DNA from: Betaproteobacteria bacterium
Lineage (GTDB): Bacteria > Bdellovibrionota_B > Oligoflexia > Silvanigrellales > Silvanigrellaceae
Assembly: GCA_016868315.1 (NCBI GenBank)
Contig: VGHE01000012.1
Coordinates: 17,848-81,847 of the forward strand
Direction: 5' to 3'
Length of the DNA: 64,000 nucleotides
The translations under genes were made by a program, and so were the position numbers. The notes under the pieces were generated by a model, which was not told the DNA's origin, ran no database searches, and worked only from the letters and a program-made list of their open reading frames with translations. Each line of letters starts with the position of its first letter. Position 1 is the stretch's first letter. Below, piece after piece: positions 14,878-20,877 of this stretch.

Positions 14878-16980
14878 TCACTTTGGTGGTTTGATTTCTC
14901 CGTTGAATAGCTTCTGGACGGCCTGGTGGAATTGACTCACAGTAATGGCCTCTCGAAACAAAATGGCTGGTTTTCCATTGAAGTCGGAGCCCGCCGGATA
15001 GATGCCTACGGCCGGAAGTCCGGCGAGATCCCAGCGCTGTGTGAGTTCTTCAGAGGCTGGGTTTGACTCTGTGAAATCGATTTTTAAGGCAATGAAGTGT
15101 TGGTTGAGGAGCGCCTCGACTCCAGACTCACTCCAAACCTCAGCATCCATTTTCAAACATGCCACACACCATTGTGCCCATGCATCGACAAGCAGTCCCT
15201 TCCTCTCAAGCTTTGCTGCTTGCACGGCTTTGTTCCAGTCTTTGTACCATTGCGCACTGTCATTTTGCATTGAACCCGCCGGCGGCACCTCGACCGGATC
15301 ACCAATGCGATCGATTGATGGCCAGCTGGGTAAAGACATGGGTACGAATCCTTTGACCAGCGACAGGGTCATCCACAATGCGAGGATGGTGAGTCCAATC
15401 TGAGTGCCCAAGAGCTTGAGGGGATGCTGAATCGAGCGGTTCTGCCAGACAAGAAAGATGATGGTCAGCACTGAAATTGTGACAACTCCAGTGAGGTTCG
15501 GCTGTGCATAAAGGATTGAAAAGAGTGGAATGGTGCCAAGGAAGATCTTCAAGTAATAGAGCGACAGTGAAAACATCAGGGCAGCAAATACGTTTTTGAC
15601 GAGGTCAATGAGCTTACCTGCGCGAGGCAGTTTTTTGAAATGCTGTGAAAGCATTCCAAGCACAAGATAAGGTGCCCCAAAACCAGCAGCGAAAACGCTC
15701 ATAAGAGTGAAACCGTAAACGGGATCTTTGGTTTGCCCGACAAGCACAAGCAGCAAGCTCAGCACAGGACCTGTGCAGGGCGCAGCAACGAGACCTGAGA
15801 CAGCACCCATGGTCAGCAGAGCCAAAGTCGGTGAGCGCCGTGACAATGGAATTTTGTTGCCCAGACTCTGCAGCCGCGAAAGATCGATTGATCCGAGCAT
15901 CGACAGGCCGAGCAAGAACATCAAGACCGCGAGTCCAAAATTGAAACTTCGACTCTGCAGGATTCCGCCAAACAGAGAGCCTGTCATGCCAGCAATAACA
16001 CCCATACTCGCATAAGCGAGTATGACACCCAGGACATAGACGAGAGCTGGAACAAACGACTGCACAGGGGTGGAGTCGTCATCGCTCCTTTTGGTTTGTG
16101 AAAGCACGTTGAGCGTGATGGGAATCATTGGATAGACACAAGGTGTGAGGTTCATCAGCAAGCCTGCGAGGAAAAGCGCAGGAAAAAGAAACCAACTTCT
16201 TTGTCCGAGTGTGCGCTGAACCTGAGCGGTGATGCTGTCGGTGAGTGACACTTCCACTGCAGGTGCAGGTGGAATTGCGGGCGTTGGTGTGGGTGTAGCT
16301 GTGAGAGTAGGCGCTGCCGTTGGTGTGGGTGTAGCTGTGAGAGTAGGCGCTGCCGTTGGTGTGGGTGCCAGAGAGCTTGCGGACGATGAGCCAACCAGAC
16401 CCGGAAGTGTGCCTTTTGGTTCTGGACGTGACACCTCTCCTTTTCTTGCATTCACAAGAAAATATGTGGGCAAAAGACAAGTATTGACCGAGCAGGCCTC
16501 AAATCGAATGCGTAGCACCCCAGTTTCATCCATGGGTAGGTCAGACGTCGCAATAAACCGTGTTCCCTTGTCGAAGATTGCACGCGGTTCATTGTAAAAA
16601 GGATCTTGTACGACCTTCGCTTGGGGATCGGCACTGGTTTGCAGAGCTATGGGAGCATTCAGTGTTGCGGTGCTCTTGTATTCGAACCGCAGACCCTTTT
16701 CGTAGATTTTGAAGCCGCCTCGGGTGTCGAGCTCGAGCACAGCGCTTGTTCCTGTGCCCTGATTTGACAGACCAACAAGTCTGAATTGAACCACATTCGC
16801 AGGGTCAATTTTGTTCAGCTCCTTGAGTGGTGCGCTGAAAGGGTCGTCGAGAGCCACGGCACTTTGGTGCGGAAAGCACAACGAGGCGATGCAGACAACC
16901 ACACCTACAGCGAGTAGGCTTCGGCGCAAAAGACGGGTTGGCAATTTCAGCAATGCCAGAGTATCACCATTGTTGAGCAT
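14878..16980 (-). CDS. dsbD: thiol:disulfide interchange protein DsbD
   Basis: 700 residues. Passes electrons from cytoplasmic thioredoxin to periplasmic thiols. All three redox modules are present: N-terminal periplasmic domain with ACSVNTC (Cys163, Cys168), membrane domain with LTPCVYP (Cys281) and APCTGP (Cys402), and C-terminal thioredoxin domain with WCVAC (Cys605, Cys608). A Thr/Pro/Ala-rich linker (about 206-238) encoded by tandem repeats is longer than usual. It could reduce the CcmH cysteines of the nearby fusion. The start codon is only 29 bases from the divergent phosphoglycerate mutase gene and its SD is weak, so the exact start is less certain. Confidence 0.92.
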   Translation of the reverse strand: MLNNGDTLALLKLPTRLLRRSLLAVGVVVCIASLCFPHQSAVALDDPFSAPLKELNKIDPANVVQFRLVGLSNQGTGTSAVLELDTRGGFKIYEKGLRFEYKSTATLNAPIALQTSADPQAKVVQDPFYNEPRAIFDKGTRFIATSDLPMDETGVLRIRFEACSVNTCLLPTYFLVNARKGEVSRPEPKGTLPGLVGSSSASSLAPTPTAAPTLTATPTPTAAPTLTATPTPTPAIPPAPAVEVSLTDSITAQVQRTLGQRSWFLFPALFLAGLLMNLTPCVYPMIPITLNVLSQTKRSDDDSTPVQSFVPALVYVLGVILAYASMGVIAGMTGSLFGGILQSRSFNFGLAVLMFLLGLSMLGSIDLSRLQSLGNKIPLSRRSPTLALLTMGAVSGLVAAPCTGPVLSLLLVLVGQTKDPVYGFTLMSVFAAGFGAPYLVLGMLSQHFKKLPRAGKLIDLVKNVFAALMFSLSLYYLKIFLGTIPLFSILYAQPNLTGVVTISVLTIIFLVWQNRSIQHPLKLLGTQIGLTILALWMTLSLVKGFVPMSLPSWPSIDRIGDPVEVPPAGSMQNDSAQWYKDWNKAVQAAKLERKGLLVDAWAQWCVACLKMDAEVWSESGVEALLNQHFIALKIDFTESNPASEELTQRWDLAGLPAVGIYPAGSDFNGKPAILFREAITVSQFHQAVQKLFNGEIKPPK
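16284..16367. repeat. 36-bp tandem repeat, 2.3 copies, within dsbD
   Basis: Units at 16284-16319 and 16320-16355 are identical by eye, with a 12-base partial third copy. They encode a repeated 12-residue Thr/Ala/Pro unit (like TAAPTLTATPTP) in the linker between the first periplasmic domain and the membrane domain. Length variation between strains is likely. Confidence 0.85.
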
Positions 16981-17009
16981 TTGAGTCCCGAATTAAGAGA
17001 GAAGAAATT

Positions 17010-19748
17010 ATGGCTGTTGATACACCATCTGCCCTGTCGAAATCTATCATGAACACCCGCGTCGATCACAAAGTCCTGGTCGTCGTTCTCGACGGTGTGG
17101 GTTGGAAAGACACTCAGGATCACGTGACCCTGCAGCTGGCACATCAGGCTGGTTTGCTTCCTTCGGCAGCATTTGTTGGGGGCAATGCCGTTGCTGCTGC
17201 TTACACGCCCCATCTTTCGAGTCTGATGCAGAGATCCCTGAGCCGCACACTTCTTGCCCACGGTCCGAGCGTGGGTTTGCCCTCGGAAGATGACATGGGG
17301 AACAGCGAGGTCGGACACAACGCACTCGGTGCTGGCCGGGTTTTCGCGCAAGGTGCAAAACTTGTGGGCGAAGCGATTGCAAGCGGTCGTCTTTTTGAAG
17401 GCGAGGGCTGGAAAAAGGTCGCACACCGCTCTGAGCTGCACTCGGGAAAAAACTCACTACACCTGTGCGGACTCTTTTCCGATGGCAATGTTCACAGTCA
17501 TATCGATCATCTGTTCGCGCTTCTGACTGCCGCTAAAAAAGAAGGTGTGCGCAAAGTGCGTTTGCATCTTCTGCTTGACGGACGTGATGTTGGTCCCGAC
17601 ACGGCAGAGCTCTACGCTCAAAAGCTCAGCGCTTTCCTTCGAACCGTGGTGGATAAAGATTTCGACTGCTGTGTTGCGAGTGGCGGTGGGCGCATGTTTG
17701 TGACCATGGATCGCTACGAGAGTGACTGGTCAATTGTCGAGCGCGGATACAACGCTCACGTCTTGGGAGAGGGACGTGCTTTCAAGTCACTCGAGGAGGC
17801 TTTGCAAACCTTCCGTTCAGAGGGTCTGAAGACCGACCAGAATTTGCCTCCGTTTGTTGTTGCGAAAGATGGTCAACCGGTTGGAACTGTGGGCGACGGC
17901 GATAGTTTCGTGTTTTTCAATTTCCGGGGTGACCGTGCCATTCAGATCTCTCGCGCACTCACCGAACAAAACTTTAAGCCATTTGTGCGCAAGAGGTTTC
18001 CGCAGGTGGTTTATGCCGGAATGATGCAATACGACGGCGATTTGAAACTACCAGAAATTTATCTTGTTGAGCCGCCACTCATCGACAGAACCATGGGTGA
18101 GTTGTTGAGTGTAACGGGTGTCAAGCAATTTGCGTGCAGCGAGACTCAAAAATACGGGCATGTGACCTATTTCTGGAATGGCAATCGCAGTGGGAAGTTC
18201 AATGAGAGTCTTGAGAATTACGTTGAGATTCCATCTGATCTGCAGCCCTTTGCTGAGCGTCCTTGGATGAAATCTGCAGAAATCGCCGATCGAACCATTC
18301 TTGAAATGCAAAAAAGTAGCTTCAGGGTTGGGCGTATAAATTTTGCGAATGGCGATATGGTTGGGCACACAGGAGATTTTGCAGCCACACTTGTCTCGGT
18401 GGCCGCAGTTGATTTGGCGTTGGGTCGAATTCTTCAGTGCGCGATTGAAACCAACACGGTTGTAATTGTCACGGCAGACCACGGCAACGCCGACGAAATG
18501 TTTGAGCTCGACAAGAAGTCAGGAAAAATACAATACGATACACGCGGTGTACCTCGCGCAAAAACGAGTCATACACTCTCTCCTGTACCGTTCTGTATTT
18601 TCAATGCTGAAGTTCTTCAGCGCGAAATTCACTTACGCAATGATCTTCCAAAGGCTGGCTTGGCCAACGTGGCCGCAACAGTGCTTGAGCTTGCCGGATT
18701 CCAGCCACCTTCAGCGTATGAACCGAGCTTGATTGTTCTCGGGCAGGAGAAAGGTTCGGGCGATTCCAAGTCCAGATTGACAGACACTGCTGCTGTAACC
18801 ATGTCTCTTCATTCTGGCTATCATCCGAAGCTTGTTAAGAGGGCAGAGCTCGCATCGCACCGGGAGTTTTTTAGTCTTGGCTTGAAGTCGGTGATGTTTG
18901 CAAAGACCGTAGCTGCTTTGCGCGCGCAAGACGGTTGCCCATGGGACAAAGAGCAAAACATCGAATCCCTGCGACCCTACCTCGTGGAAGAGGCTTATGA
19001 AGCGATTGAGGCTGCTGCACAATACGCAAAGGCAGGCGATTTGGAGACTGCGAAAGCTTATTGCGGTGAGCTGGGAGATGTTCTCTTGCAGGTTTTCCTC
19101 AACGCACAGATTGCCTCTGAGCAAAAGCATTTTACTGTGGCCTCAGTTTTTGATGACATCTGTGAAAAGATGATTCGCCGTCATCCGCACGTTTTCGCAA
19201 CATCGGAAAATGTAAAAACCTCTGCCGATGTGATGCGGCAATGGGATGCGATCAAGGCGCAAGAGAGCAACGCACAAGCGCTGAATCAGCCTAAATCCCT
19301 GTTGCATAAGACCCGCAAGAAGTCGGCGCAACCGACATTGGCTTGGACATCGGCCGTTTCAAAGGCCTCGTGGAAACTTGGATTCGCATGGAAGACTCTC
19401 GAGCAAACGTTCGCAGATCTCTCTTCAGAAATTGAAGAGCTAAGGCGCGAGGTTTTTGTCGATGCACCCGAGCGCAGTCGGGTTGCCGATGAAGTCGGAG
19501 ATGTTGTTCTTGCGTTGGCAAATGTTGTTGTCTTTCTCAATGAGATGAAATTTTCTGGCGCTGAACCTTCGCTGGACTTGGATCTGTCGGCCCGCGCGAG
19601 CGTGGAGAAATTTCTTTCGCGATTTGAAGGAATGGAAAACATCCTGCGTGAACGTGGAGTCGATGTGACAGAAGACTATGCCAAAGGTCTCTCACTTGAG
19701 GTTTGGGATGAGTTGTGGCGGGAAGCCAAGCGAAGAAAATACAGTTGA
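17010..19748 (+). CDS. fused phosphoglycerate mutase (2,3-BPG-independent) and MazG pyrophosphohydrolase
   Basis: 912 residues in one frame. Residues about 20-580 are iPGM: VVLDGVGW (Asp28), DDMGNSEVGHNALGAGR (catalytic Ser99), DGRDVGPDTA, NFRGDRAIQ, CSETQKYGHVTYFWNGNRSG and ADHGNADEM. The variant motifs match the plant-type iPGM rather than the short bacterial GLVGNSEVGH form. Residues about 615-905 are MazG: DGCPWDKEQ, YLVEEAYEAIEA, GELGDVLLQV, MIRRHPHVF and a second half ending DEVGDVVLALANVV. iPGM interconverts 3- and 2-phosphoglycerate; MazG removes non-canonical NTPs (in some bacteria also ppGpp). An in-frame ATG at 18801 lacks an SD, so a separate MazG is unlikely. Confidence 0.92.
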   Translation: MAVDTPSALSKSIMNTRVDHKVLVVVLDGVGWKDTQDHVTLQLAHQAGLLPSAAFVGGNAVAAAYTPHLSSLMQRSLSRTLLAHGPSVGLPSEDDMGNSEVGHNALGAGRVFAQGAKLVGEAIASGRLFEGEGWKKVAHRSELHSGKNSLHLCGLFSDGNVHSHIDHLFALLTAAKKEGVRKVRLHLLLDGRDVGPDTAELYAQKLSAFLRTVVDKDFDCCVASGGGRMFVTMDRYESDWSIVERGYNAHVLGEGRAFKSLEEALQTFRSEGLKTDQNLPPFVVAKDGQPVGTVGDGDSFVFFNFRGDRAIQISRALTEQNFKPFVRKRFPQVVYAGMMQYDGDLKLPEIYLVEPPLIDRTMGELLSVTGVKQFACSETQKYGHVTYFWNGNRSGKFNESLENYVEIPSDLQPFAERPWMKSAEIADRTILEMQKSSFRVGRINFANGDMVGHTGDFAATLVSVAAVDLALGRILQCAIETNTVVIVTADHGNADEMFELDKKSGKIQYDTRGVPRAKTSHTLSPVPFCIFNAEVLQREIHLRNDLPKAGLANVAATVLELAGFQPPSAYEPSLIVLGQEKGSGDSKSRLTDTAAVTMSLHSGYHPKLVKRAELASHREFFSLGLKSVMFAKTVAALRAQDGCPWDKEQNIESLRPYLVEEAYEAIEAAAQYAKAGDLETAKAYCGELGDVLLQVFLNAQIASEQKHFTVASVFDDICEKMIRRHPHVFATSENVKTSADVMRQWDAIKAQESNAQALNQPKSLLHKTRKKSAQPTLAWTSAVSKASWKLGFAWKTLEQTFADLSSEIEELRREVFVDAPERSRVADEVGDVVLALANVVVFLNEMKFSGAEPSLDLDLSARASVEKFLSRFEGMENILRERGVDVTEDYAKGLSLEVWDELWREAKRRKYS

Positions 19749-19848: not shown

Positions 19849-20877
19849 ATGGTTTTGAAGAAGCTCTTTGGCAAACGTGACGCAGAAACAGCCCCAGGCG
19901 CTGTTCCGGCGGTCGAAAAAAATACACCCAAGGCGGGAGCCACAGCAGCACCCGAAGTTTCTCCCGAAGAGAGTGCCACAGGCGACGCGTCGGAGCCCAA
20001 AGCTGCTCTTTTTCTCGAGCAGGCTATGGTTGAGAACGCCCGTCAGGATACTCAAGACAGCCGTCGGAAGGTCTATCAGGAGCTTCTGTTCTCTGAACTT
20101 CTGCTTGCCTTGTCTGAACCCGAGGCTGGCGCAGCAGCAGAGCAGTCTGCTGAAAATGGTCAGAATATGAGCGTCGCAATTCTCCAGAATTCTGCGGGCA
20201 CACCCTTTGCAGCTGCGTTCACAAGCGGTGCTGCCGCGCGTCGCTGGCGCCCCGACGGTGGACAGTACGTGTCCGTGCGTGGCCAAGACATTTTCAAACT
20301 TCTCGAACCCAGCCCGGCTGAAGTCATTGTGGTGAACCCGGGCAGTGCGCCGTTTATTTTGCTCTCCAAAGTGGAGTATCGCCAATTGGCCATGGGTATT
20401 GTGCCGCAAACTCAGCAAAGTCCGGTTCAGGTTGCGAGCGGTGCCGGTGAGGCGCAGGGCGCGGGCGACGGTCAGATGCAAGTGGCCTTCCCGCCAGACG
20501 TGTTCAACGATGAGCAAAAGGCTCGCGCGAAGAGTATGCTTAGTTCTAATGCAAAAGTTGAGGCTGCGGTGCTCGGAGCCATTCTTCCACCCAATGCGGG
20601 CGAGTCCGGCTGGATCCGAACCATCTTCCTCCGCGTTTCTGGCCTCGAAGAGAGCCCAGAAGCCATGCAGTCCTTTTGTGGTGCTGTAAAAGATAGCATT
20701 GTGGCGGGTCAGGATGAGCTTTTTGGTGCCGTTCCGTTCGAAGTGGGCGTTATGCCTGACCCCAATTTCTGGCAGGCAATGCATCAAAACGGAATCATTC
20801 TCTTTGACAAGAATCCCCCTCCTATGTCACAGCCTGAAGCGAAAGAGGGCGTTGTGGACGCCCATCTTGAGGCGTGA
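19849..20877 (+). CDS. SseB-family protein
   Basis: 342 residues. An Ala/Pro/Glu-rich N-terminus (about 1-50) precedes a domain with VYQELLFSELLLAL, AAFTSGAAARRWRP and VIVVNPGSAPFIL, typical of SseB N-terminal domains, followed by an SseB C-terminal-like region (about 205-325). SseB proteins are cytoplasmic, and in E. coli are linked to serine sensitivity; the biochemical role is not established. It is 100 bases after the iPGM-MazG gene and starts a run of three plus-strand genes. Confidence 0.7.
   Translation: MVLKKLFGKRDAETAPGAVPAVEKNTPKAGATAAPEVSPEESATGDASEPKAALFLEQAMVENARQDTQDSRRKVYQELLFSELLLALSEPEAGAAAEQSAENGQNMSVAILQNSAGTPFAAAFTSGAAARRWRPDGGQYVSVRGQDIFKLLEPSPAEVIVVNPGSAPFILLSKVEYRQLAMGIVPQTQQSPVQVASGAGEAQGAGDGQMQVAFPPDVFNDEQKARAKSMLSSNAKVEAAVLGAILPPNAGESGWIRTIFLRVSGLEESPEAMQSFCGAVKDSIVAGQDELFGAVPFEVGVMPDPNFWQAMHQNGIILFDKNPPPMSQPEAKEGVVDAHLEA

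Follow-up and report, generated by a model that had tools for sequence, protein, structure and literature searches.

A phosphoglycerate mutase-MazG fusion in Silvanigrellaceae and the poly-A run found at its joint in most relatives, a candidate slippage site

Transcriptional slippage on nine A's yields both tau and gamma from dnaX of Thermus thermophilus, and in many bacteria selection against slippage shows from a run length of nine bases (PMC1088944). In tssM1 of Citrobacter rodentium, slippage on an A11 run gives rise to two length variants (about 20%, PMC4256274). Gene pairs linked by programmed frameshifting, magnesium chelatase among them, were found by GeneTack (PMC3711429). A literature search on a fusion between the 2,3-BPG-independent phosphoglycerate mutase iPGM and MazG found no paper.

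The window, a stretch of 64,000 nucleotides, belongs to a genome of the family Silvanigrellaceae, whose relatives include Fluviispira multicolorata, Spirobacillus cienkowskii and uncultured Silvanigrella MAGs. An unbroken frame of 912 codons plus stop runs on its forward strand from ATG at 17010 to TGA at 19748, and Pfam profiles recognize both parts of the 912-aa product (iPGM_N 3.8e-62, Metalloenzyme 6.9e-56, MazG 1.8e-26). The features of the locus are as follows.

16995..17009, forward strand: Shine-Dalgarno-like purine-rich stretch AAGAGAGAAGAAATT upstream of the start codon, judged by inspection only
17010..19748, forward strand: iPGM-MazG fusion gene, a single open frame with in-frame homologues in L002, L003, L004, L005 and L006
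17070..18737, forward strand: complete iPGM of plant/kinetoplastid type, residues about 21-576 (profile and structure-relative matches, well-predicted fold)
18738..18896, forward strand: linker, residues about 577-629 (from pLDDT; length and sequence variable among relatives)
18747..18754, forward strand: GAGAAAGG, at the position equivalent to the A9-A11 run of relatives, the run itself being absent (junction DNA compared by eye)
18897..19745, forward strand: two-domain MazG, residues 630-912 (TIGR00444 2-248/248; E. coli MazG 3cra, E=2.6e-34)

The fusion announced in the preliminary description is thus confirmed as one frame with full-length domains scoring above cut-offs. That description would have given way had no relatives shared the fusion and a frame error been evident at the joint; such relatives exist, and a frame error at the window junction was rejected as an explanation, the same fusion being in frame in genomes G001, G003, G007, G009 and G013. 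A divergent DsbD homologue lies on the reverse strand (14878-16980), with a Pro/Thr/Ala-rich tandem repeat (APTLTATPTPTA) behind its N-terminal domain; its start codon and that of the fusion gene are just 29 bases apart.

To assign the first half to the iPGM family, we used TIGR01307 together with PF06415 and PF01676. TIGR01307 matches at 371 bits (curated cut-off 330.65) and covers positions 2-497 of 504, the full length of an iPGM. In the alignment with 1ejj, residues S99, H162, D193, R228, R235, R306, R309, K381, D449, H453, D490, H491 and H521 are kept; in this family these positions are the catalytic Ser, the metal ligands and the substrate Arg/Lys residues. Every catalytic or metal-binding position visible in the alignments is conserved. 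The plant-type motifs quoted earlier, including WNGNRSG, were located at residues 94-110 and 389-395, and the assignment to this branch agrees with the closest solved structures: 3nvl of Leishmania (555 bits) and another kinetoplastid enzyme (543 bits), against 302 bits for 1ejj of Geobacillus. A 'plant-type' iPGM is in itself not unusual: Methylomonas, Clostridia, Myxococcota and others have enzymes with 51-59% identity to it, and kinetoplastid/plant-like iPGMs in bacteria were noted previously (PMC2964296). The fused protein is the sole iPGM of the window's genome, and of the 14 family genomes 13 have this iPGM as their only phosphoglycerate mutase to pass its cut-off. A cofactor-dependent enzyme exceeds its own cut-off in G005 only, a genome without iPGM, where it appears as two adjacent matches in different frames. 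The iPGM half is most likely, judging from its sequence, a working, 2,3-BPG-independent mutase.

The second half was assigned with TIGR00444 and PF03819. The former scores 187.5 bits (curated cut-off 148.3) over its full length, covering both domains. Both MazG helix motifs had been said to be kept. This stands for the two-domain organization, for the N-terminal domain, where EEAYE (660-664) and ELGD (687-690) agree with E. coli MazG (3cra), the nearest solved relative, and for the second C-terminal motif, EVGD. It is slightly too generous for the first C-terminal motif, which reads SEIEE against EEIDE in E. coli: the first Glu of EExxE is replaced, while E807, E810, E828 and D831 are retained. 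The protein thus carries the EExxE/ExxD metal motifs by which MazG membership was judged, and this half would probably act as an NTP pyrophosphohydrolase. The window's genome has in addition a second, short MazG-like frame of 129 aa (G000:C21:6213-6413, reverse strand); similar short matches are present in G001, G003, G009 and G010.

Across the class, genomes outside Silvanigrellaceae carry gpmI and mazG as separate adjacent genes on the same strand in 29 of the 34 that have both (tallied from listings). Their mazG shows an in-frame ATG 27-43 codons before its CPW motif in 30 of 31 loci (101 codons in one with a long N-terminus), a set that includes a few duplicates of the same genome. One non-family mazG, L129 in G023, has a long basic N-terminal extension containing an A9 run. 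The joined state was found in Silvanigrellaceae only; long frames in G043, G055 and G018 had looked like separate fusion events in other parts of the class but were discarded, each containing a stop between the genes. In trees of either half the family stays together, except that the iPGM of G014, an order-mate outside the family with no mazG beside its gpmI, groups among them. A single origin of the joined state would fit these trees, and the simplest origin for the fusion is that two genes standing side by side in an operon were joined.

Downstream of the fusion gene, the window carries an SseB-domain gene (19849-20877, forward strand). Its likely counterpart stands directly 3' of gpmI in L066 (downstream of 6590), where mazG is absent, so either the order gpmI-(mazG)-sseB is older than the fusion or that lineage has lost mazG. 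In G005, a MazG with an N-terminus of about 205 aa is found between dsbD and an sseB-like gene (L115:2462-3946, reverse strand). It was considered as a decayed iPGM-MazG fusion and rejected, no iPGM similarity being detectable in this N-terminus by hhalign or by hmmsearch against shuffles.

The joint was then compared among the 14 family genomes, of which 12 are resolved (G002 was left out because its contig ends in the linker, G005 because it has no iPGM). What we looked for in a slippage gene was a homopolymer of at least nine A or T, conserved among species at the frame transition, and an A9-A11 run lies exactly at the joint in 9 of the 12, genomes that are related and hence not independent. 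Three of the nine are in frame (G003 with A10, G007 and G009 with A11). In the other six, mazG is in the -1 phase (G004 with A9; G006, G008, G010, G011 and G012 with A10). The remaining three lack the run and are fused in frame: the window's genome, G001 and G013. At the window junction no A-run of seven or more was present; this gene does not have the A/T run at the joint expected for programmed slippage, and its fusion is constitutive.

Several of the family genomes are MAGs, and assemblies are prone to errors in the length of homopolymers. Indels of sequencing or assembly might mimic the off-frame state, all family members being hard fusions; the A10/A11 differences do resemble sequencing errors, and two near-identical S. 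cienkowskii loci, iPGMs included, differ by just this (A10 in one, A11 in the other). A complete genome of that species was assembled from Nanopore duplex reads (PMC12321486), and the difference needs caution if G010 is that assembly. An artefact throughout is nevertheless very improbable: the same one-base error would be needed in six genomes, contiguous assemblies included, the off-frame phase hits stops at once, and conservation of the run would persist even if the indels were errors.

Products were computed for each run length. For each of the nine genomes, a single phase leads to the fusion, and the remaining two reach a stop 0-9 codons behind the run; these stops fall just past the end of iPGM, so that an intact iPGM is predicted. 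One additional transcribed A, or a -1 ribosomal slip, would yield the fusion in the off-frame genomes; in the three in-frame genomes with a run, slippage would act in reverse. The run is the only A/T homopolymer of at least nine in the gpmI-mazG coding region of each of the nine genomes. No other A-run of at least seven exists at the G003 locus (59% GC), and the whole 4.3-Mb genome of G003 holds 4 distinct A10 runs, of which it is one. Its length agrees with the nine bases from which selection against slippage shows in many bacteria (PMC1088944). Among 20 invariant Lys columns, 5 have the codon AAA throughout the nine genomes. Selection on the choice of AAA, with the amino acids taken as given, is a moderate argument, since AAA Lys codons in AT-rich genomes explain the run in part as codon bias. 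A stronger argument is that run, frame change and missing start coincide.

The missing start concerns the mazG frame before CPW, in which no ATG or GTG is found in any of the six off-frame genomes; TTG is likewise absent there from G004, G006 and G012 and present in the other three. The frame is nonetheless open and constrained. In pairs of A-run genomes, MazG dN/dS is about 0.16-0.21, indicating purifying selection, and linker changes in the closest pairs favour third codon positions of the mazG frame; mazG must therefore be translated. The TTGs leave a slight doubt as to whether it lacks a start of its own in those three genomes. They might start mazG weakly by reinitiation, translational coupling being frequent in operons; the hard fusions would then be neutral stop losses and the run incidental. 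We find this improbable: the TTGs have no evident Shine-Dalgarno element, three off-frame genomes have none of the three start codons, all six lack both ATG and GTG while 30 of 31 non-family loci have an ATG, and in 6/6 the frame changes exactly where the run lies.

How the two frames would be joined was considered next. Ribosomal -1 frameshifting of the kind known from E. coli dnaX, with A AAA AAG or A AAA AAA as the slippery site, would suit the -1 position of mazG and the in-frame slippery heptamers that exist at the joint, both A_AAA_AAG and A_AAA_AAA being listed among frameshift heptamers (PMC3711429). Transcriptional slippage is favoured over it: the run is always at least nine long where a heptamer would suffice, it is retained in three genomes already in frame, the base that follows it varies, and neither a stem behind it nor an SD-like element ahead of it was found to be shared. 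Frameshifting is therefore rather unlikely, and slippage of RNA polymerase on the run is the reading that we prefer.

In this preferred reading, to which we give roughly a two in three chance, the protein is a bifunctional iPGM-MazG whose dosage would be set in most family members by poly-A transcriptional slippage, the lineage of the window being hard-wired. The ancestor would have had a gpmI-mazG operon, as synteny suggests. In Silvanigrellaceae, mazG would have lost its own start, so that only ribosomes reading on from gpmI would translate it. RNA polymerase slipping on the 9-11 A's would bring a constant proportion of transcripts into the fusion phase; in the others translation would stop right after the run to give iPGM alone. 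Where the run is absent, in the window's lineage and in G013, fusion would be constitutive and every iPGM would carry MazG. MazG would in this way be made as a set fraction of a glycolytic enzyme, with much iPGM and less MazG, and direct metabolic cross-talk would be unnecessary. We lean, by a narrower measure, to a fuller version in which the run is a phase-neutral hinge throughout the family: replication slippage would set its length, polymerase slippage would fix the ratio of iPGM to iPGM-MazG, independent translation of mazG would be wholly lost and the window's lineage would represent the hard-wired end state.

The cross-talk had been the proposal of the preliminary description, in which the fusion could couple glycolytic flux to nucleotide quality or to the stringent response. 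If channelling or allostery tied glycolysis to the control of nucleotide pools or to the stringent response, selection for such coupling could account for gpmI and mazG remaining neighbours class-wide and being joined family-wide. Our analysis gives neither this nor a coupling to ppGpp any support, and we hold it improbable. iPGM and MazG have no substrate in common, and iPGM alone is one of the predicted products in most relatives. The MazG of a cyanophage prefers dGTP and dCTP and neither hydrolyses nor binds (p)ppGpp (PMC6850273). As for the joint, AlphaFold predicts iPGM well and MazG as all-helical with low confidence (its alignment is shallow); pLDDT is 24-42 across residues 581-620, and near residue 590, where a structure of the junction had been called for, residues about 583-617 have no predicted structure before the first MazG helix begins. 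The linker is thus predicted to be disordered and flexible, and its length and sequence differ between relatives.

With dosage set by slippage as the preferred reading, one gene pair in one bacterial class would offer a natural series that begins with separate neighbours, passes through frames joined by slippage and ends in hard fusion. This suggests that poly-A slippage can be a stable means of tying together the amounts of two unrelated enzymes and can be an intermediate in gene fusion. Annotations of Silvanigrellaceae genomes may show mazG as a gene of its own or as a pseudogene, though its product probably exists in fused form only. Some family members are culturable, which makes the claim directly testable.

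Compared with the separate gpmI and mazG of E. coli and other bacteria, each half is likewise full-length with its catalytic residues, but here they form one polypeptide and MazG has no evident start of its own. MazG is also the C-terminal fusion partner in the YabN-type methylase-MazG (NF052436), whereas its partner here is a glycolytic mutase. With the pairs found by GeneTack the locus shares being fused in some species and, as predicted here, frameshift-joined in others; the genes are different and the site is a long poly-A run. As in C. rodentium tssM1, slippage is predicted to restore the long product in the off-frame relatives, with a stop close behind the run, but tssM is one gene and here two former operon genes are linked, a link conserved family-wide. 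The likeness to T. thermophilus dnaX lies in an A9-A11 run near the end of the first module, stops just behind it in the other phases and two predicted products with a common N-terminus; in contrast to dnaX, two unrelated enzymes are joined, and 6 of the 9 genomes are predicted to need slippage for the long form and not for the short one.
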